This document shows positions 40,200 through 62,786 of a stretch of 64,000 nt of DNA, piece after piece (position 1 is the first letter of the stretch; each line of letters opens with the position of its first letter). The stretch is taken from assembly GCA_019096195.1 (NCBI GenBank), contig JAGTXK010000054.1:62001-126000 (forward strand), given 5' to 3'. A model generated the notes under the pieces. It saw only the letters and a program-made list of their open reading frames with translations. It searched no databases and had not been told where the DNA came from. The stretch is from Boletus sp. NGJ. Taxonomy: Eukaryota > Basidiomycota > Agaricomycetes > Boletales > Boletaceae. The position numbers and the translations under genes are program-made.

Positions 40200-41283
40200 T
40201 GTAGTGAGGGTGGCAATAAATAATGGGTATCAATGGTGTGAACATTTCAGTTACTTTTTTTCTGCAAAAGGAAGAGGAGGGTGATGTGGAGCATGCAATC
40301 ATGGGTGTTGATGAGCGGAAGGGCAATGGAATAGTTGAATCCTTCAATGAAGAAAAGGTTGAGAATAAATTCATGAATCTCACTGACATTTTCCATCACT
40401 CTTTCTTCTTTAGCAGTCTACTGGGCATTGAAGAGAGGGGAACTTGTCAAGCTCCTGGAGATCCTGGAGAAAACAGATTGAAGGGTGGAGTAGGATCTGT
40501 AAAGAGTGGCAAGCTGGATGAGGGTATCATCACAGGTGAAGAATGAGATGCATTGGAGCACCTGAAGCATGATGGGGTCATCAAGTATGGATGCATAGAG
40601 GTTTTGGTGGTGAATTGGGGAGAGATGACTGAGACATTCTGAGAGGGAGGTGATGGCCATCTACCAATTGGTATGATAAGGAGAGTAATTGATTCTGCAG
40701 AAACAGGAATGTTGGGAGATGTGCTTGGGGATGTTGAGATCAGGATACTGGACTATCTTGGGGCATGGGGATGCATCTCAGAGTTTCTGTCGCCTTTTAT
40801 ACTCCAAGAGTACTGCCTTGGCATTTCCCAAATTTGACTCAGGCTCCCAAGTTTGTTCTGTGGAGGGCCAGCCATCCTGAGATGATCCTGGAATGCCAGG
40901 ATGCTTTCAGCCTAGGTGAGTATCAGCAAATTTGTTGATCTTATCAATTTATCCACAGAGACCCTCTAGGGACATTGAAACAAAAATACCCACTGCGGTA
41001 TCTAGGACATGATGAAGAAGAATTCATCAAAAGGGAATTGTATGAACAATTTTGCCACTGGAAGCCTCTGCAACGGGCAGAATTCTTTAGGGCCACCAGA
41101 GACATACTGGAATATGTAGCCTGAGTTTGATTGTGTGATTGTATAATTGGAATGGGGGTAATTTGGCAGGAGTCTTCTCTATGAAGATGTCTTGGTATTC
41201 TTTGAGGGCAAGAGGAAGGGATACTTTTGTCTTCTCCACTTGTTGGGTGACAGTGGTAGACAAAGTTGTCCTTCAAGAAGTCA
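40200..41283 (-). mobile_element. Broken Gypsy remnant with chromodomain-like piece
   Basis: On the minus strand near 40810-40880 the reading PSTEQTWEPESNLGNAKAVL is the core of a chromodomain as found at the end of chromovirus integrases. Other weak pieces follow on both sides (for example LTSSPLFNAQ at about 40420). It is old, CpG-poor and heavily broken, and it abuts the start of the plus-strand pol at 41284. Confidence 0.5.
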
Positions 41284-41837
41284 TTTGCATCAAAAAGAGT
41301 CAAAGCTTACCCATTAAACCCTGCTGAACAGAAACTCTGCAGGGAATTTATTCAAGAACATCTCAAAACTGGGAAGATCTTGCCATCCAAATCTCTCCAA
41401 GCTACCCCCTTCTTTTTTGTCCAGAAGAAGGATGAAAAGCTCCAACCTTGCCAAGATTACCAATACCTGAATGAGCACATGATCAAGAATGTCTATCTTC
41501 TCCTTTTAATCTCTAACCTTGTGGATAAATTAAAAGGATCATTGATCTTCTCAAAATTCGACATATGATGGGGATACATGCTCATCAAACTGGAAGATCA
41601 GTGGAAAACTGCCTTCCTCACCCCCTTTGTTTTGTTCAAATCCAACATAATGTTCTTTGAAATGTGTAATTTCCCCACTACCTTTCAGGCCTTCATGAAT
41701 GACCTTTTTGAAGACTACATCACTGAGGGATAGCTAGTAATTTACATGGACAATCTGCTGATTCACTCTTCAGATCAAGAGGTCCATGATGAAAGGACTT
41801 GGAAGGTCTTAGAATGCTTCTGACAGCATGAAATGTA

Positions 41838-43409
41838 CAGTGGCTCAAAAAAGTGTCCCAATGTTTGGCTATTTTGCAAAGACTTGACATTTGCAAAAGA
41901 ACCAAAAGGTATTAGCCCTAACCCTTGCTGGGCCATTGACAGCCCTAATCCTTGCCCTGAAGATGAGCCCTTAGTCATATAATTTGGTTGTCATGGCACT
42001 GAGATATAGCCATATTAAAGTGACATGTCATTGGAACACTTTTTTGAGCAACATTTCTATTCTTCAATTTAGTACTTTGTATGCCCTCCCTTTGCTTTTA
42101 TCACTGCCTCTAGTCTTCTAGGCATACTCTCTATCAATCCTTGACACTCCTCAACCTCTATCTTCCCCCACTCCACTTCAATTCTCTCCCAAAGCTCCCA
42201 TACTCCTTTTGGTGGTGTTGTATAGCTATTGAGGTTTTTTTTGAGGATTTGCCAGAGATGTTCAATGGGATTAAGGTCTGGAGATTGTGCTGGCCAGTCA
42301 AGAAGCCTGATCCCTTGAGATTCCAGCCACTCCTTGGCTCTTTTAGAGGTGTGCTTGGGGTCATTATCTTGTTGAAAGATAATGCTCTCTTCAGGAATTT
42401 CAGAATTTTCCATGGAAGGAAGCAGATTATCCTCCAAAATGGAGACATACTGCTCAGCATTCATCCTCCCTTCAACCTCTGCAAGAATCCCCACTCCACT
42501 CCAACTCATGCATCCCCAAACCATCAAGGAACCTCCTCCAAACTTTACTGTTCCCTGAACTTCCTTGTCTTGCAAAGACTTTCCTGCCAATTTCCATACA
42601 TACTTCCTTCCATCTGACCCAATTCTGTTGATCTTGGTTTCATCTGACCATATAACCCTAGTCCAGTCCTCCACAGTCCAATGTTGGTGCTTGAGAGCAA
42701 AGGCTAGCCTATGTTGCCTATGCTTCACAGACAAGAGTGGCTTCTTTTTCTTGACTACAGCCTTGAGAGATGCAGACTTGAGAACATTCCTAACAGTTTG
42801 AGCAGAGACAGGAGAAGAGAGAGCAGAATTGATGAGATGGGTAGCCTGGACAGCATTTTCAGCTTTGCCAGAGGTAATACTAGAGACAATTCTCCTTTTA
42901 TCAGTAGGAGAAAGTTTAGAAGGACATCCTAATTTGATGTTTTCCTTGCCTGGGTGGATCTCCTTGATAACCCTGGCCACAGTAGACTTCCCCAGACCAG
43001 TTTGGAATGATATTTGCCTAGTAGAAAGGCCAGATTCAGAGAGAAAAAGAATACTGGCTCTAGCAGAGGAGGGAGTGGATTTCATAATGAAGTAGGGTTG
43101 GCTGAATGGTATCTCTGCTCTTTATACTATTTGGAGTTATGTAAGTGACATAATCAGACAGGGTTGAAGCACAGCATCCATCAGAACCTTATATTATTTA
43201 CTAAATGATAGTTGATAATATCAGGGTCAAATAAGTGTCCCAATGACATATCCTTTTAATATGGCTATAACTCAGTACCATGACAACCAACTCACATGAC
43301 TAAGGGCTCATCTTCAGGGCAAGGATTAGGGCTAATACCTTTTGGTTCTTTTGCAAATGTCAAGTCTTTGCAAAATAGTCAAACATTGGGACACTTTTTT
43401 GAGCCACTG
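41838..43409 (-). mobile_element. Complete Tc1/mariner-type transposon, 1572 bp, CpG-free
   Basis: The ends are CAGTGGCTCAAAAAAGTGTC and its exact complement at the other end, flanked by TA (41836-41837 and 43410-43411), the Tc1/mariner target duplication. The terminal inverted repeats are long, 41838 to about 42049 and about 43224 to 43409. The left one carries an extra ~27-base partial duplication (GCCCTAACCCTTG / GCCCTAATCCTTG). Each inverted repeat ends internally with an inverted copy of the terminal motif. Line-by-line reading found no CG dinucleotide anywhere in the element. It is inserted in the Gypsy element's reverse transcriptase region. Confidence 0.95.
42069..43085 (-). CDS. Tc1-type transposase, DD34E
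   Basis: This 338-residue cut-and-paste transposase has no interruption. The N-terminus has a helix-turn-helix (LSTRQISFQTGLGKSTVARV) and a second DNA-binding part with the basic GCPSKLSPTDKRRIV. The catalytic triad reads VIWSDETKI (first Asp), FQQDNDPKHT (second Asp) and, with Tc1-like spacing, NPIEHLWQILK (Glu). Length is usual for the family (about 340). The start ATG is at 43083-43085, and the stop is near 42069, just inside the left inverted repeat. The gene has no CpG at all, although such a protein would normally use CGN, TCG, ACG and GCG codons. All its arginines are AGA/AGG. It may be active or recently so. Confidence 0.96.
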   Translation of the reverse strand: MKSTPSSARASILFLSESGLSTRQISFQTGLGKSTVARVIKEIHPGKENIKLGCPSKLSPTDKRRIVSSITSGKAENAVQATHLINSALSSPVSAQTVRNVLKSASLKAVVKKKKPLLSVKHRQHRLAFALKHQHWTVEDWTRVIWSDETKINRIGSDGRKYVWKLAGKSLQDKEVQGTVKFGGGSLMVWGCMSWSGVGILAEVEGRMNAEQYVSILEDNLLPSMENSEIPEESIIFQQDNDPKHTSKRAKEWLESQGIRLLDWPAQSPDLNPIEHLWQILKKNLNSYTTPPKGVWELWERIEVEWGKIEVEECQGLIESMPRRLEAVIKAKGGHTKY

Positions 43410-43720
43410 TACCTCAAACTGGAGAAGTGTACCTTCTTAGCAAAAGAGGTTGAATACTTAGGGATGATCATGGGCAAACATGGGGTCAGAATGGAGCTGG
43501 TCAAGCTCAAAGCCATCCAGGAATGGAAAGCACTACTCAATGTGAGGGATGTACAGTCCTTCCTAGGATTTTGCAACTTCTATTGGAAGTTCATCCCCTC
43601 ATTCTCCAACATCATCTGCCTATTGCTAGACCTCACAAAGAGCAAGGAACCATGGTGATGGAATGAACCCTGAGAGAAGTCCTTTCTGGCTTTAAAGAAT
43701 GCCTTCACTCAGAAGCCAGT

Positions 43721-49480: not shown

Positions 49481-52400
49481 AAAGGTGTAAATTCTTATAC
49501 TGAGGCTATCGTTGTCATAGCCCTCCACCCACCATTGCTCGCCAACGTCCCACTCTGAACCCTGTGTGGTGGAATCCTCGTGCACGTGCCGAGACACCCC
49601 CCACTGACGACAACTCTTCTGACCACGAAGAGGGATCACCAGACACCGACCTCGACCTTGACCTCCCGTCCCAACAACAACAGGACGTGGCCCTCGACTT
49701 GTCACGCCAACTCTCAGATCGTCTACGTCTACCAAGAACCCCCACACCACCGTCTCCAACACCGTTGACGGCAGTACCCTCGTTCTCTGCACCACCCCCT
49801 CTCCTGTCACCCATGTCTTCGGTAACTCGACCCACCGAAACTCCGTATTGGTACCCCCGAAGCCTATGATGGCTCCTTTGACACCTCGGTACCATGGTTG
49901 AACACTGTCCAGTTCTACCTCTACGTCAATGCCAAGGTCTATGATACCGACGCTAAGCAAATCGCCTTCACCCTGTCCTATATGACTAAAGGACCAGCCC
50001 TCACCTGGGCTACCACCTATCAACAAAACGCCATCAATGGCATCACCATCACCCTCGGGTCGTTCGCCGACTTCGTCACTGCCTTTGAAAAGGCATTCAA
50101 ACATCGAGACACCACTGGAAACACCATCGCTTGGCTGTCTACCAAGCGAATGATCAAGAAACGAGACAACTCGTACTCCCCCTCCCTCACACAATACACA
50201 TCAGAGTTCCAGAACAATGCCGCCCTCGCTAAGATCACTGACCTGAACATCCTCATTGGGTACTATTCCACTGGGATCCCACCAGGGCTGATGCGACGGA
50301 TTATGTCCATGGACACGGTGCCCACCACCATCGAAGAATGGTACTCCCATGCCATTCATTTCCAAACACAATGGGAAAGAGCTGACGAGATCGCCAAAAG
50401 GAGTAGTAAACCATTTGCGCACGCCTACCACTCCTTCTCTTCGCCTACCTCCTCCAAACCCCAAGACCCCGACACCATGGACGTCGATGCCATCTCTATC
50501 CCTAAGTTGACCCCCAAAGAGTGAAAACGCTGCTTCGACCAAAAACTTTGCTTCCATTGTCGCCAGCCAGGTCACATCACCACGGCATGTACCACCTTCA
50601 CCTCCCCCATCAAGAAGGTGAAGACCCCCCCTGCTAAGAAGATCAGGATTGTTGAACAAGGAGAAGGAGACTCTGATGGAGAGACCATCAGGACAAGTCT
50701 CCTCGGGTTTTTGAAACGGGGAACACCTTTGACGCATGTTTCCCCTTCTCTTAGTTGTGCCGCTGTAACAGTAGAATCGAAATTGAAAGGCATTTGTATC
50801 CCTGTTCAACTCCTTGTTCCTGCACACACTAAGAAAGCCATCAACACCAGAGCCCTTGTAGATAGCGGCGCAGAAATCTCCTGCATCGACTATCAGTTTG
50901 TGCGGAAGCATAAACTCCCGACCACACGACTCCACACCCCCATCCGTGTTCGAAACGCTGACACCTCATTCAACAAGAACGGGGATATCAAATTCACCTG
51001 TGATCTCTTTGTGAACATCAAGGGCGTCCTTATGAGGACGACCCTCCATGTCATCTCCTGCGGACAAGAAAACGTCATCCTTGGCCAACCTTGGCTCCGC
51101 TCATGCAACCCGACCATCGACTGGGCGGCTAATACCCTCACCCTCGATGAAACCCTCGACCAGTCCGCCGACCTCTATCACACGAGGACCAAACCCATTC
51201 CCGCCGAAGTAGACGAATCCTCATCCCGACCAGGCCACGTTGACATTAACCTTCGGACCTGTCACCACCTCCACGGCTTTCCTTCAGAAGGAAACCAAAG
51301 AACGAGAGTACCTGCGGAACGCGAACTGAAACCGCGTCTTACACCGAAATCATCCGAGGGCAATACAAATACGTTGCCTCCTCTGTCGTCGCCAAGATAA
51401 CGGTTGCAACCGAACTCGCAGAGGCCACTGAAAAAGCCAAATCCAAACCAACCCTCCCCTGCAGCATATGCTGATTATGCCTCCGTCTTCTTGAAGGAAG
51501 CCACTGACCATGTTCCCCCATCACGTCCCTACAACCATGAAATCAACGTCAAGGAGACTTTTGTTCCGAAGATCGGGAAGGTGTACCCCCTTTCCCCCCA
51601 TGAACAAAAGGTAACCGAAGAATTTCTTGATGAACACCTTAAAATGGGAAAGATTCGCCCGTCGACCTCCCCCCAAGCATCCCCCTTCTTCTTCGTCAAA
51701 AAGAAGAACGGCGACCTCCGCCCATGCCAAGACTACCGGTACATCAACAAACATACCGTTCGTGACGCCTACCCTCTCCCCTTGGTCTCGAACCTCATCG
51801 ACAAGCTCAAAGGAGCGACAACCTTCACTAAGTTCAACGTCCGTTGGGGATATAACAACGTACGCATCAAGGAGGGTCACCAATGGAAAGCCGCTTTTGT
51901 CACACACCAAGGCCTCTACGAACCTACCATCATGTTCTTCGGCCTGTGCAACTCCCCCGTAACTTTCCAACGATTCATGAATGACTCCTTCCGAGACATG
52001 ATCGCCGAAGGGTGGCTCATCATCTACATGGACGACCTCCTCATCTTCTCCCCAGATGATGCCCTGCACACTGAACGGACCAAACATGTCCTCCAACGTA
52101 TGACCGAACTCGACCTCCACCTCAAACTCGAAAAATGCACTTTTGCCACCGACGAGGTGGAGTACCTTGACATGATTGTCCGTCCTAACCAATTGGCTAT
52201 GGACCCCGTCAAGCTTGACGGGATCGCCAAATGGCCCACTCCCACCAAGGTCACCGGAGTCCGATCGTTCCTTGGCTTCGCCAACTTTTACCGACGATTC
52301 ATCCCAGACTACTCCACAATCGCCCACCCCCTCATTGACCTCACGAAACTCAACCGACCCTGGGCCTGGTCAAACGAATGCCAGGATGCGTTCGACAACC

Positions 52401-54101
52401 TTAAACGTCTCTTCCTGGCAAAACCAATCCTCCACCTCCCTGACTTCTCCGCCCCCTTCGCCATCGCCACAGACACCTCGAAGTATGCCACGGGCACTAT
52501 CCTCCTGCAAACCGACACCAATGGTGACTGGCACCCCTGTTCATGCCTCTCACAATCCTTCTCCCCCGCTGAGCGAAACCACGACATCTACGACCGCGAA
52601 CTCCTTGCCGTCATCCGCGCACTGAAATCTTGGCGCCACTACCTGTATGGCTCCCCCTTCCCCGTGCAGGTTTTTACAGATCATAAAAACCTGCTGTACT
52701 TCAAATCTCCCCAAAACCTCAATCGCCGGCAAGCTCACTGGCTCCTCGACCTCGCCAATTTTGACCTCAAAATCATCCATGTTCCTGGCTGCCTCCTTGC
52801 CGGTCCAGACGCCCTGTCCCGTCGCCCCAACCTCATCCCGATGACCGATGCGGACAACGAAGGCGTCACACTCCTTCCCCCCTTCCATGTTCGTCAACTT
52901 GATTGACACCTCGCTGGCATCTCTCATCCAGAAATCCTCCCTGTCCGATCCCCTCGTCCTCCAACACCTCCAGGCGACAGACACCTCAGCACCCGCGTTC
53001 CTCCGTGCCCGCCTCTCTGACTGGTCGTACTTGGACGGCCTTTTATCCTACCGCAACCGCGTCTATGTCCCACCGGAGGACTCCCTCCGGCGCTCCATCC
53101 TCCACCGCTGCCACGACCACGAGTCGGCCGGCCACCCTGGCTACTCTGAAAACCCGACAGCTGGTGTCCGCTGACTTCTGGTGGCCCGGCCTGGCCTCCT
53201 ACGTCCGTGCCTATGTCTCTGGCTGCCCATCCTGCCAGCAGAACAAGGCCAACACACACCCTGCCATACCCCCCCTGACCCCTATCCACTCCACCAACCT
53301 CCCTCCCCTTCCGCCAGGTGTCCTGCGATCTCATCACCGACCTACCCCTTTCCTCCGGCTTTGATTCCCTGTTGGTCGTGGTCGACCACGGGCTTACTAA
53401 GGGGGTAATTCTATGCCCCACGAAGAAATCAGTGACCGCAGAGGGGATCGCGACACTCTTCTTCCACAAAGTGTACCTCCGCTTTGGCCTCTATGACAAG
53501 ATCATCTCCGACCGAGGACCCCAGTTCGCCTCGGCCTTCGCCAAAGAGCTTGGAAAACTCCTGAAATACGACCTTTCCCTCTCCACCGTGTATCACCCCC
53601 AATCCGACGGAGAAACGGAACAGGGTCAATCAGGAGATCGAGACCTACCTCCGGATCTTCTGCGGCAACGAACCCACTACCTGGGCCGAGAAGATCTCCT
53701 CACGCCGAATTCACTCACAACCACCGACCCCACTCCGTCACCGGGCAATCTCCGTGCTTCCTCCTCATGGGATACGAACCCCGTGCCCTCCCTTCGGTTG
53801 TTCCCAGACTCCGCGATCCCCGCCCTAGAAGAGCGCATCCAGAAACTTTCAGCCGCCAGGGACGAAGCCCTAGCAGCACACGAACTCGCACGACAGGTCA
53901 TGGCCTCTCGTACCCGCCGCCACTTCACCCCATTCAAGAAAGGCGACAAGGTTTGGCTAGAGGCCAGGAACCTGAAACGCTCCGTCGCCGACCCAAAGTT
54001 CGCGCCGAAACGAGAAGGCCCATTCACCGTCACACACGTCCTATCCCCCATCGTCTACAAACTCCGCCTCCCAGTCACATGGAAGATCCACCCGGTCTTC
54101 C

Positions 54102-55355
54102 ATGCCTCGCTCCTCTCCCCCCTGTCACGAGAATGCCACATACGGCAAGCACTTCGTAAAACCGCCGCCCGAATTGATAGCCGGTGAAGAGGAATACGAA
54201 ATCGACAAAATCCTACGGCATCGCGGCCCCCCGTCTCGCCGCTCCTTCCTGATCCGATGGAAAGGGTACTCCGCAGAAGAGGACTCCTGGATCCCCGAGC
54301 GGGATCTGAAACATGCCAAGTCCGCTCTGCTCGACTATAAGAAGCGTCACCCTAGGAGCATTCCCCTCCATCGCCTCACTCACACTCGTACCATGACCAT
54401 TCCCCTCACCGCCGACATGCAACGACCCTTCTCCAATGCCACCATGTCTCCCTCCCCACATTTTCTTTCTACGATACCTGGTAGCCGTACTGTATCTCCT
54501 ACTCTCTCCTCTCCTTCGTCACTCTCGCGTTCTAGCTCCCCTCTTGACGACTACTCTCGTCCTCATTCTCCTCTGTTACCTTCTCCCCACGGCGAACCTC
54601 ACCTTCTATGCCCACCGACACTGGTCTCACTAGCCTCCACCCCTACACCAATCATGTCGGTGGATGTCCCTATCTATGCCACTCGTCTTCGCAACGACTT
54701 CCCAGACCTGGCCGAGGTCACCCGCCTCACAGAGAACCTCGAAGACCCCCGCATGGCACTAGGGCTTGGGGCCCACTTGGACTACACCTCCCCCTTATAT
54801 TCCCTCTACAAAGCGTACTTGCAAGCGGCCGCCCTAGAGTCCATCGCCAACCGCACCACCGCCAACACCCACCTATCCCTAACCCAGCTATGCCTCCGGG
54901 GCATATCCAGTGAGCTAAAAGCGGCGCTCCTAAATGCCCTCCATCAGCTCGGGGCCGTCGAGCTCCTGGACGACCTTGACCGATATATGAGGGACCTAGC
55001 TAACCGTCCCGTCCCAGCAATGCCTCCTGCACCCTCCACACCGTCCGCCTCGTCGTCCCCTCTAGGCAACAAGGAACTCGCGGTCGTCCGCCGTGAGGAA
55101 GCCTATTGGACTGGTCGTGACAGAGCGGTCCCATTGGGACCTTCTCACCCCCACTACTCCAAGGCTTGCTACCAATGCCACCGTTTAGGTCACCTACGCG
55201 TCTATTGCCCCATCTACCAATGCCCCCAATGCTTACGTTGGGAACCCGGTCACACTCAGGCACACTGCCCCCTACGCCGTCGTCTGAACCCACAGACCCC
55301 GTCAACCTCGTCCTCGTCATCTAGTCGTGCGTCGCCCTCGTCCCACTCAACCTGA
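54102..55355 (+). other. Chromodomain followed by an extra zinc-knuckle domain (3' end of the young chromovirus)
   Basis: One open frame of about 417 residues holds a chromodomain (YEIDKILRHRG...RWKGYSAEEDSWIPERDL), then about 100 low-complexity residues. A helical region follows (DFPDLAEVTRLTENL, YKAYLQAAALESIAN). It ends with two Cys/His clusters (CYQCHRLGHLRVYC, CPQCLRWEPGHTQAHC). Chromoviruses normally end at or shortly after the chromodomain, so the helical-plus-knuckle tail is an added module. Its role is unknown. Confidence 0.75.
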
Positions 55356-58126: not shown

Positions 58127-61100
58127 TAGTAGTTTTTAGATTTACTTGTCTTTTTTCTTCATCCAATGGAGTTTGTGTCTGGTCATGCAGAGTGAGGTCT
58201 GGGTTTGTCTGGGTAGCGAGTGTGATAGTCGCGGACAAGTTCGGAAGCATGACTGAGTTCGGTGGCTAGAAGCCATGAGGTTTCTTCGTCTGTTTCCTTT
58301 GTATCCTGACCAATGGACGAGGTACAGGAGTTTGCAGTTCCGGTGACATCAGTCTATCTTCAAGTCAAGGATCTCTGAAACTTCATACTCTGGTTCTCCA
58401 TCTACTTCAACCGGAGGTGGCGGAGATTGTACCTGGTTAGGTATTGTGTTGGGTATGAAAGGGTTCTAATTGTGAGATATGAAAGACCGGGTGAACAGAC
58501 TTCATAGACTCGGGGAGTCGGAGTGTGAAGGAGTGGGAGCCTGCCTGAGCGATGATTGGATAGGGCTCTAGGTTCTTCTTGGAGAGTTTCTTTGAAGGCC
58601 TAGTGGAACAGAAGTACTTGGCTTTATTAAGTCCGGGGATGTTACCATGTCATACATCAGGATGAAAATGCACTGTTTGGATAATCGGTCTACGACAATG
58701 AGGATAGTGGTAAATCTGGAGGACGAGGGGAGTTGCTCAATGAAATCCATAGAGATGGAATTCCACGGCTTCTCCGGGATGGGGAGTTGTTTCAACAACC
58801 TATAGGGTCGGTGTCTTGGAACCTTTGTGCAGGCACAAGTGGTGCAGGAGGAGATGTATACTTTGACGAACGTCCTTATCCTTGGCCAGGTGTATTTGCG
58901 GCATACAAGTTCCAATGTCCGATTTTGGCCGAAATGTCCAGAGAGGGGATGGTCATGTTTGTACCGGAGGACTCGGAGTCAGAGGTCATTGGCATCGGGG
59001 ACATAGATGTGCTTGTCGAGACGGAGGAAGCCGTCTTTATCAACTAACCAGCGTGAGTCTGGATCAGGAGAGGACATATGTAGTTCAGCAAGTGGGTCAG
59101 AAGGGAGTGCGGATAGGATGTTGCTGTGGAGTTGCTCTATATCAAACAGGGTGCTAGCCTGGAGTACCAGAGCTGCAAGATAAGTAGCGCAGAGGGAAGA
59201 AGCAAGCTGTTCCTGTGTAAAGATGGGGTGGAAATTATGCGGATTGACTGCAAGTGTAGTCCTTATCCCCCTCTTTGGGATAGACGTCCCAGCATCTAGT
59301 GAGGGCATCAGGTTTCATGCCAAGTTGTCCAGGGCGAAAGTGGACTATCATGTGGAATTGGGAGAGGAACTCCGACCACCGGGCTTGCCGGCGGGTCAGG
59401 AGTTTTGAAGTGGCAAAGTACTCCAGGTTCTTGTGGTCGGTGACGACGTTGATCAGGGTGCCGGAGCCTTCAAGATAGTGCTGCCAAGCCTGGAAAGACT
59501 TGTGGATGGCAAGGAGCTCCTTATCATGAGTGTCATAGTTGAGCTCCAGAGCGGTGAGCATCCATGAAAAGAAGGCAACGGGCCAGAGTTCTTCATCCGG
59601 ACAATGGATGGAAAGAATCCCGGTAATGGCATAGTTGGAGGCATCGGTTTCTATGATCATTGGAGCATCAGGAGCCCAATGGGTAAGGATGGGAGTGGTG
59701 GTGAAGGCTTCCTTTAGCAAAAGGAAGGCAGATCGACAGTCGTCTCTGAAGACCCAAGGAATACCCTTGTGGGTCAACCGGGTTAGCGGAATGATGATGT
59801 CGGAGTAATTGGCAATGAAACGCTGGTAGAAGTTGGTGAATCCAAGGAAGGATTGGATGTTCTTGACTTTACAAGGTTCTGGCCAGTCCTGCACAGCTTT
59901 GACTTTGTCCGAAGACATTGTAAGGCCAGAGGGAGTGATGATGTAGCCGAGGTACTCCATAGTGTCGGTGGACCATTCGCATTTCTCAGGTTTTGCGTAC
60001 AGGCCATGTTTGCAGAGTCATTGAAGGACTTCCCGGACATGTTCTCTATGAACAATTTTATCTGCAGAGAAGATCAGAATGTTGTCCAGGTAGACAATCA
60101 CACTAACATCTAAAAGATCTGCAAAAATGGTGTTGACAAACTGTTGAAAAGCCACGGGGGCGTTGGTAAGGCCAAATGGCATTACCAGCCACTCATAGGA
60201 GCCATAGCACATTTGGAAAGACATTTTCCATTCATCTCCGTTGGCAATGCAGACCAAGTGATAGGCATGCCGGAGATCGATCTTGGTGTAAATCTTAGCA
60301 CGGCTCAGAGCGTCTAGGAGGTCGGAGATACGGGGAGTGGGTAGCGGTCTTTCTTTGTGATCTTGTTAAGTCCTCAGAAGTCGACGCAAAGGCGGAGTGA
60401 ACTGTCCTTTTTGTGGACAAAGAGGACTGGGGTGGTGTGGGCGGAGGAAGAGGGTCTGATGAAGCCCATGACTAGGTGCCCATCAAGGAAAGCATGGAGA
60501 GAGCCGAGTTCAGAGGTGGAAAGGGAGTATGTGGTTCCCAAGGGAGGAGAGGCTCCTTCCTCCAGGTCAATCTTCAGATCGTGTTCCCAGTGTGGAGCAA
60601 GCTGGGAAGCTTTGCTCTTGCTGAAAACATCCGGGAAGTCATGATATTCTGGAGGAACGCCGGAAAGATCGACTGGTTCTGGGGGAGTGATGGAAGCGGA
60701 GCAGAGATCACTCTCCTGGGGATGGAGTTGCAAGCTGAATTGGATGGAGCCCTCAAGGTGACAAGCTAGTGCAAATGCTGGTGCACTAACAAGCGTGATG
60801 GGTGGAGCTTTGCAGTTGGAGAAATGCGGTGGATTGGGTGGGGTGTCAGCCAGAGGAAGGGATTCCAGAGGCTGCAGAGGGGAGCTCAGGGTTGCTGGCA
60901 AACGCTGCTCGGATGAATGGAACGTGATACTGCTCGTGACCCAGTCAATCAATGGATTGTGGTGGGTGAGCCAGTTATGCCCTAGAACAATGGAACAGGC
61001 GGAGTCCAGCAGAGTGACATAGAAAGTCATCAGGGTGATGCCACCAGTTGTGAAGCAGACTGAGAGGTTGGTGGCTTGGGTGATTGTGCTATTGGTAGTT

Positions 61101-62786
61101 CCATCAAAGAGACACAGTTGGAGCGGAGGGACAGGGTAGGTTGAAAGTTCATTTTTATTTACGAAAGTAGTATCTATGAAATAATCAGAGGAGCCCAAAT
61201 CTACAAGCGTGGAAAAGGGCGGAATTGGGTAGGAGACTAAGGAGACGGAGGGCATGAGGGATTTGGGGTTGGAAAGAGCAGACGTGTTGAGGCGAATCTC
61301 CTTAGCTGCACATGTGGGTTTAACGCAACCTCCAGTCTGTGCGGAGTCATGGAGGTCATGGATTATTTTTTTGCCTCCAAAGTGGAGACTTCCAGTTTGG
61401 TTTCCAGAGTTGTGGTCGCAGTGTGACCCTTGGATGTGCTGGAGGTCAACTTCAGACAATCCTTTGCCATGTGACTGGCTTGGCCACAGAACATGCAGAG
61501 CTTGTTGTCGAACTTGCACTTTCTTTTATCTGAAGTGAGCTTGCCATCTTTCCCTAATTTGGATGACAAGTCCAGCTTCGGATGGGCGGAGGTGGTAGCT
61601 CCTTTGCCTTTGGACTCCTTGGAGTCCTTGGCGCTACCGGAGGGGCACAGAGAGGATGATGTGGTGGGGGTGGATGGTTTTGGGGCAGAGGATGGGGTCA
61701 ATGCTTTAGTCTGCCTGCTAACTTCTGACTTGCACTCCCAATAGCATGCATCGATGGTGTGTGCGAGGCTTTGGAGTTTGGAGAGTGTAGGGGGTTTCCC
61801 AACCTGTGATATCTCATCCTTGATGTGGTCCGGACAGACCCTTAGAGAAGTGGTGTTGGAGGGCACCTGCTCCGTAGCCGTGGACTTGTGAAGTGATCCA
61901 GTTGAACTCGACCACATACTTGATGATGTGTTGGGTATCCTTCATTGACAAGTGGTCGAGCTGGTGCTCTGCATCTCCAACGGGGTTGTGCGGACCAAAG
62001 TTGGTCTGGAGCTCTAGGATGAACTCTTTAAAGTCGTCCATCCAGAGCGGATGGAAAGTGGGATCTTCCATCTGGAGGAGGTCCAGTTCGAACCACTCTA
62101 GAGCCATGCCCTTTAGGTAGGGACTGCGCAAAGGTGACTTTGGTGCAGTCCATCCTGAAAGTCTTCGGGCGGTCTTGGAAGTTAAGTTTCGCACTGGACC
62201 AGAAAGACCCAGAGTTTTGCAGGGCTCAGTCCCGTCAAACTGGTCCGGTTCCCGGACCTTAGTGGCATGGAGTGTGGTTGGAGGGATGATGCATGGAGCA
62301 AGCAAGGCCTTTGATGGCATCAGCAAGCAGTGCGCGAGAGTGTCTTGTGGGACGTGCTTGTTGTCGGAGTCTGAGGGAGCGTCGTTGTTGGGGAAGTCAG
62401 GATCATCATCCGACGGGTCATCTCCAGGGAAGTCCGGGAAGTCGTCATTTGGGAAGAGGGCAGCCTGCACTCATTGACTCAAGTGTCGGCTTGTGAGTGG
62501 GGAGGTGGTGGAGTCATTGTCGGTGGGTAACTCAACGATGCGCGCTCCTGGAGTAGGGGACTCCAGGAGTGGTCATAACTGAGAGGCAGAGGTGGGAGTT
62601 CATCGAGGCGGAGAAACTTCAAAACTGGTCGACGAGTTCTGGACCTCGCCAACTGCTGCCAAATGTGCTCAACAGGTTGTAACGTGGGGATGCGGAGGGG
62701 TTTGCGCCAATGGCGCAAGTCTGGGATCTAGTAGTACATGTAGCCATAATGTGAGAGACTCGTTGCAAGTGGGAGTTTGAATATAC

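Follow-up and report, generated by a model that had tools for sequence, protein, structure and literature searches.

A Tc1/mariner transposon of Boletus sp. NGJ retains an open transposase gene without a single CpG dinucleotide, and comparison of its copies indicates that a lineage already free of CpG has recently been amplified to at least 40 sites in the genome. The element lies in a 64,000-nucleotide stretch of contig JAGTXK010000054.1 (positions 62,001 to 126,000; assembly GCA_019096195.1), referred to here as the window. The account that best fits the sequences, to which we assign a probability of about 70%, is that CpG methylation and deamination would have eroded a Tc1 lineage while selection maintained its protein, yielding a CpG-free element that then spread. 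CpG erosion is normally taken as a route by which methylated repeats die. Here it would have ended in a readable, amplifying gene devoid of CpG, residing in a genome beside long-open-frame retroelements that mostly keep theirs. The family therefore offers a natural test of two questions: does CpG methylation silence mushroom transposons, and can an element outlast methylation by losing its target site?

Structure and composition of the window copy

The element and the retroelement sequences around it are listed here in window coordinates.

41838–43409, minus strand: Tc1/mariner element, 1572 bp, no CpG, TA target-site duplications on both sides
41838–42047, unstranded: left terminal inverted repeat (TIR), about 210 bp, first letters CAGTGGCTCAAAAAAGTGTCCCAATG
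43227–43409, unstranded: right TIR, about 183 bp, some 27 bp short of most sampled copies (which are about 1599 bp long)
42069–43085, minus strand: transposase ORF, 338 aa, HTH_Tnp_Tc3_2 and DDE_3 domains, DD34E, 17 of 17 arginine codons AGA or AGG
41266–41835, plus strand: RT-like stretch of a Ty3-type element, left part, interrupted by the Tc1, CpG-poor and broken (read from translated frames)
43412–43658, plus strand: RT-like stretch of the same Ty3-type element, right part, restarting right behind the TA duplication (read from frames)
50525–55352, plus strand: Ty3-type retroelement, CpG close to normal; frames for protease, RT/RNase H, Tf2-1-like SH3 and chromodomain
59238–61525, minus strand: second retroelement with protease and RNase H frames, CpG observed/expected (o/e) 0.42–0.56

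The initial annotation had described a 1572-bp element without any CG, in which every arginine would have to be encoded by AGA or AGG. A base-level recount bears this out: no CG is present where 69.9 would be expected from the element's own C and G counts, and the absence spans the TIRs, the non-coding parts and the ORF alike. The transposase uses 7 AGA, 10 AGG and no CGN codons; NCG codons are likewise absent, and no codon ending in C is followed by one starting with G, against 17.5 such junctions expected. Synonymous recoding of the transposase at the same base composition gave 26–64 CpG in 2000 draws (mean 43.9), and this minimum of 26 excludes chance or composition as the cause of the zero count. 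TpG and CpA reach o/e values of 1.24 and 1.26 in the element; the host part gives 1.11 and 1.05. One feature of CpG-eroded repeats, CpG loss with TpG/CpA excess, is present, while the other, a destroyed reading frame, is absent. As the frame contains no CGA codon, no TGA stop can be reached from it by one CpG transition.

In other respects the element appears to be of the standard Tc1 type, with TA duplication, TIRs and both DDE_3 and HTH domains present. The TA duplications occupy 41836–41837 and 43410–43411, and the TIRs are 98% complementary over their 94-nt outer arms (TA included) and 91% over 107-nt arms. A form of 1572–1573 bp, represented by the 43227–43409 end of the window copy and by copies L011 and L015, lacks about 27 bp of one TIR relative to the common 1599-bp form. 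The transposase had been described as uninterrupted over 338 codons with its catalytic residues in place, and this description holds. The ORF listing gives no stop over 338 aa, Pfam matches were obtained to PF13358 (DDE_3, E 3.2e-19) and PF01498 (HTH_Tnp_Tc3_2, E 1.4e-12), and residues 113–338 align with the catalytic domain of Sleeping Beauty (E 1e-57). D148, D240 and E275, which we take to be the DD34E catalytic triad, are conserved in 30 of 30 aligned transposase sequences. TA duplication, TIRs and a single 338-aa transposase with a matching catalytic domain are shared with Sleeping Beauty-type Tc1/mariner DD34E elements, from which the window family differs in its 0–3 CpG, its fungal host and its TIRs of about 183–210 bp. 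Other ORFs lying wholly inside the element are at most 158 aa long and all overlap the transposase, which is the longest. No TET/JBP gene was found within the element in the ORF listing, the Pfam search having covered the transposase alone, and an Rfam search of the 64-kb window returned no match.

A reading of the translated frames suggests that the Tc1 inserted within a broken, CpG-poor Ty3-type retroelement, whose halves remain on both sides. In the surrounding 1-kb bins (35–49 kb) CpG o/e ranges from 0.00 to 0.74, whereas bins from 0 to 33 kb range from 0.87 to 1.40 (1.07 overall); beyond about 33 kb retroelement frames are present and CpG is highly variable, the poorest bins besides the Tc1 itself lying at 0.02–0.14. 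Because the Tc1 is surrounded mostly by CpG-poor repeats, CpG loss is evidently widespread among the repeats of this genome, and the special feature of the Tc1 is loss with the frame preserved. The Ty3-type element at 50525–55352 (plus strand) contrasts in its CpG with the CpG-poor repeats at 35–49 kb, its long frames having o/e values of 0.67–0.99 and the four plus-strand ones 0.90–0.99. The retroelement at 59238–61525 is apparently midway through CpG decay. Neighborhood as the only cause of the CpG loss was considered and set aside, the right 500 bp of copy L024 having a CpG o/e of 0.90 and the right side of copy L017 one of 0.71; yet most measured copies lie in CpG-poor DNA, so these flanks decide little.

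Copies of the family and their recent spread

The genome searched comprises 32.8 Mb in 141 contigs. The sample of copies consists of the window copy and 39 fetched ones, these being the 40 scored among 419 first-look DNA candidates; all 40 proved to be family members and all were used. No CpG was found in 12 of them, one in 18, two in 8 and three in 2. The possibility that the window copy is a chance outlier among CpG-rich relatives, which had been raised as an objection to the original observation, is thereby excluded for the sample. Copy-to-copy identity is 96.7–99.9% (median 98.4%, n = 40) and no common flanks were detected among the 40 copies: where at least 40 bp of flank could be compared, no pair was more than 60% alike in the first 60 bp, which excludes assembly duplicates. 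TA is present on both sides in 33 of the 39 fetched copies. Among the other family copies, L025, L026 and L029 are off by one base (the match being one base short), L044 is without the first 16 bp, and L048 and L049 reach a contig end. High identity combined with unrelated flanks points to a recent burst of real transpositions, and recent mobility of the family is implied by these recent independent insertions.

In the alignment of the 40 copies no majority column pair reads CG. Of the 27 column pairs with residual CpGs, 19 have CG in a single copy, and 17 show TG or CA in the majority of the other copies; judged by the alignment, these CpGs are new mutations rather than survivors, which indicates that the lineage was already CpG-free when it was amplified. 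Loss of CpG separately in each copy after insertion could draw on the CpG-poor retroelement stretches that adjoin the element, but is hardly tenable, as it is contradicted by copies of such high identity being near CpG-free with identical letters and by the distribution of the transition products, TG and CA both being present at only 5 column pairs in the 40 copies, with the rarer of the two in at most 2 copies. Decay of newly gained CpGs within the burst was also considered and found to be unsupported, given that at columns 61 and 167 the copies reading TG do not cluster with those reading CG.

The transposase frame is intact in 30 of the 40 copies. Of the remaining ten, two are disrupted by an insertion or gap, and the other eight contain ten stops in total, all of them TAG or TAA; in the wider family (at least 90% identity), TGA is among the stops of 3 of 24 stop-bearing matches by hand count. 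Among recent copies, pN/pS is 0.85 for singletons and 0.66 for shared variants; selection is thus weak, and the open frames partly reflect the youth of the burst. A TAG at transposase codon 177 is common to copies L024, L027, L032, L034 and L035, which lie at unrelated sites and probably represent a non-autonomous group mobilized in trans; its presence at independent sites suggests that broken copies do move in this way.

Variants that create a new CpG are rarer in the burst than other variants, with 26 seen versus an expectation of 38.1 (MH odds ratio 0.59, z -2.4). The deficit fits a high mutability of CpG, and sequence context could also cause it. It would be expected as well if CpG loss had itself been advantageous, by removing the substrate of DNMT1/DNMT5 and allowing transcribed CpG-free variants to win, a process that may act atop mutational erosion. 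The even absence of CpG from TIRs, non-coding parts and ORF, together with the existence of two lineages with many open copies at 0–3 CpG, is in keeping with such adaptive escape. At the same time, sub-clades in which one or two CpGs have newly appeared have still transposed to independent sites (L024/L027/L034/L035, L028/L030/L039, L018/L022 and L026/L029/L044). One or two CpGs thus do not stop transposition, and any benefit of CpG loss is not strict. Escape from methylation-based silencing, as proposed in the initial annotation, is plausible from these sequences, and selection for escape as the cause of the CpG-free state is a tentative possibility.

Older lineages and arginine codons

Further Tc1 regions were fetched non-randomly, 20 of 119 protein matches being chosen as sister, intermediate or high-identity loci and 10 of 150 DDE_3 matches as absent from those 119. 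Tc1 lineages at approximately 67%, 60% and 50% protein identity are also CpG-poor at the sampled loci. In the ~67% lineage all ten fetched open frames contain 0–1 CpG, L061 with its changed start codon among them. Relative to the window copy, L057 of this lineage has 295 nucleotide differences in the frame, a DNA divergence of 29% and a third-position identity of 57%; the dN/dS of 0.24 is a rough value, synonymous sites being near saturation (pS 0.56). Such a ratio, with third positions turned over, indicates that the protein was under selection as synonymous sites changed. TG/CA swaps between the window copy and the ~67% lineage number 4, versus 1 for the GT/AC control, and their scarcity suggests that most CpG loss is older than the split of the two lineages. 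Judging from the 26 CpG-making variant columns in the burst, CpGs would have arisen and vanished many times over a divergence of 29%.

Traces of the earlier decay appear at two arginine positions. A third lineage, at 58–61% identity, is represented by seven loci (L080–L086) with stop-free regions of 438–441 bp that hold 2–3 CpG against 24–26 expected. The equivalent of R154 is CGC in all seven, and that of R160 is CGT in six and CAT (His) in L086. Of two worn relatives, L025 has TGT (Cys) and CAC (His) at these positions and L026 has CGT and TGC (Cys), while the window copy has AGA and AGG. Residue 154 is R in 28 of the 30 aligned sequences; residue 160 is R in 16, Q in 7 and K in 7. A CGY arginine codon can leave the CpG state by a single transition only via Cys or His, and CpG should consequently persist longest at such codons if the protein matters. 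The Cys and His codons at R154 and R160 read as products of CpG deamination. In post hoc tallies, arginine codons account for 6 of the 8 distinct sites of residual CpG in the 58–61% clade versus 20% expected (P = 0.0012), and for 3 of 4 when only the seven loci are counted (P 0.03). The worn L025, a distant copy at 49% identity over its full length with a stop at codon 303, retains 1 CpG against 50 expected.

These observations can be arranged in a sequence of events. The fungus would methylate CpG in its repeats, and deamination of 5-methylcytosine would convert repeat CpG to TpG or CpA. Over many transposition cycles only copies with a working transposase would leave descendants. CpGs would thus disappear, lasting longest where a CGY codon encodes an arginine that a transition would replace by Cys or His, until the last arginine codons became AGA or AGG, the state observed in the window copy, and no CpG target remained. 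The CpG-free lineage would then have amplified in the burst that is observed. The initial annotation had offered a lineage propagating CpG-free and decay under selection as alternatives; each appears to hold in part, as successive stages, the copies having amplified in CpG-free form after an earlier decay with protein selection (the dN/dS of 0.24 and the arginine refuges).

Tc1 families might instead have lost their CpGs in other hosts, entered this genome CpG-free and then burst. The burst is recent and its branches are short, 6941 relatives were obtained among 7992 scored candidates (best at 92% identity among the matches listed), and no CpG-rich Tc1 relative that could serve as a starting point was found among the Tc1 lineages sampled in the genome. 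Scans of viral_contigs and genome_contigs confirmed no DNA relative outside this genome. Arrival from elsewhere is nevertheless unlikely: worn copies at 82–90% identity and several more distant lineages are resident, which argues for long residence, and the genome's own repeats are strongly CpG-depleted.

Predicted host methyltransferases and the contrast with retroelements

The host appears to encode the enzymes that erosion by methylation would call for. A DNA_methylase match on contig C102 lies in a piece that matches PDB 7r76 (E 6e-81; labelled Rad8), which we take to be Cryptococcus DNMT5, and a second, on C45, adjoins a BAH-domain frame, presumably as in DNMT1/Masc2. On these matches the host is predicted to encode an enzyme resembling DNMT5 along with another methyltransferase candidate, the latter beside a BAH domain. 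STE3 receptor matches, many on one contig, were also found, as were 88 KDZ transposase matches and 23 TET/JBP matches, 18 of the latter above the cut-off; this gene content suggests an Agaricomycete host. In excerpted accounts, the main basidiomycete set is DNMT1 plus DNMT5, accompanied by CG methylation (PMC7862722), and in two Pleurotus species CG methylation is mainly found in transposons (PMC5974365).

Retroelements of the same genome were sampled from seven of 150 integrase matches that lie in open frames of at least 1000 aa, five of the seven being read. Over the fetched stretches their CpG o/e values are 1.03, 0.99, 1.07, 0.70 and 1.16, and in the longest open frames of the five stretches, taken together, arginine is encoded by CGN 121 times and by AGR 23 times. 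On a sample of five retroelements, this one genome thus contains two classes of transposon with open frames that are in opposite CpG states. Integrase matches with stops include TGA in 22 of 23 cases (hand count), as expected of a trace of CGA to TGA decay, although the domain is a short one and the stops may be shared by descent. A simple reading, based on CpG levels rather than ages, is that retroelements here start CpG-normal and lose CpG with age. Longer residence of the Tc1 or its arrival from another host would each explain the contrast between the two classes. That long-open-frame retroelements are mostly CpG-normal also bears on adaptive escape, since CpGs evidently do not bar element survival here.

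The contrast bears as well on the agent of the erosion, which, instead of passive 5-methylcytosine deamination, might have been an active, RIP-like mutator that targets CpG in repeats. CpG-biased hypermutation has been reported in Agaricomycetes (PMC4014442 and PMC6980582, in excerpt), but CpG-normal sequence in 4 of 5 long-open-frame retroelements would be unexpected if the mutator were repeat-sensing and the retroelements multi-copy, and such a mutator is distinctly improbable as the cause.

Among known systems, basidiomycete transposons with a CpG to TpG signature and a Masc2-type methyltransferase are discussed as cases of transposon inactivation in the accessible part of the source (PMC4352252). 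The dinucleotide, a related kind of host enzyme and CpG-poor repeats are common to both settings; the discussion there is of inactivation, whereas an intact frame and a young family are found here. No description of CpG-free intact fungal transposons was found in titles and abstract openings of the open-licence literature among the matches listed. Fungal DNA transposons that carry TET/JBP dioxygenases (Kyakuja, Zisupton, Dileera and others) occur in Agaricomycetes and are thought to counter cytosine methylation, as given in part of PMC12730594. Those elements carry an enzyme against the mark, while the window Tc1 has a transposase only and has lost the target. Such transposon-borne enzymes, proposed in the same excerpt as another escape route, together with the 23 TET/JBP matches of this genome, lend adaptive escape some further support. 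That a CpG-free, deamination-proof Tc1 clade would be invisible to DNMT1/DNMT5 silencing and expressed within methylated heterochromatin, complementing the TET/JBP route of the KDZ transposons that the genome also contains, is a speculative and rather unlikely reading.

TET/JBP matches have KDZ transposase matches no more than a few kb away at C33:19048-23096, C133:43330-46788, C3:112358-115869 and C97:117899-122338, a proximity also reported for Kyakuja elements. Short open retroelement-like frames of low CpG were noted in two of the fetched regions, one of 254 aa with an o/e of 0.18 (L029:2329-3090) and one of 263 aa with an o/e of 0.06 (L020:4998-5786). The latter has a Pol_BBD match, 2 CpG and 2 arginine codons. 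It was considered as a possible CpG-free open Copia lineage, but was found to have no more than two close relatives, at 87% and 65%, each of them with stops, and looks like a worn fragment.
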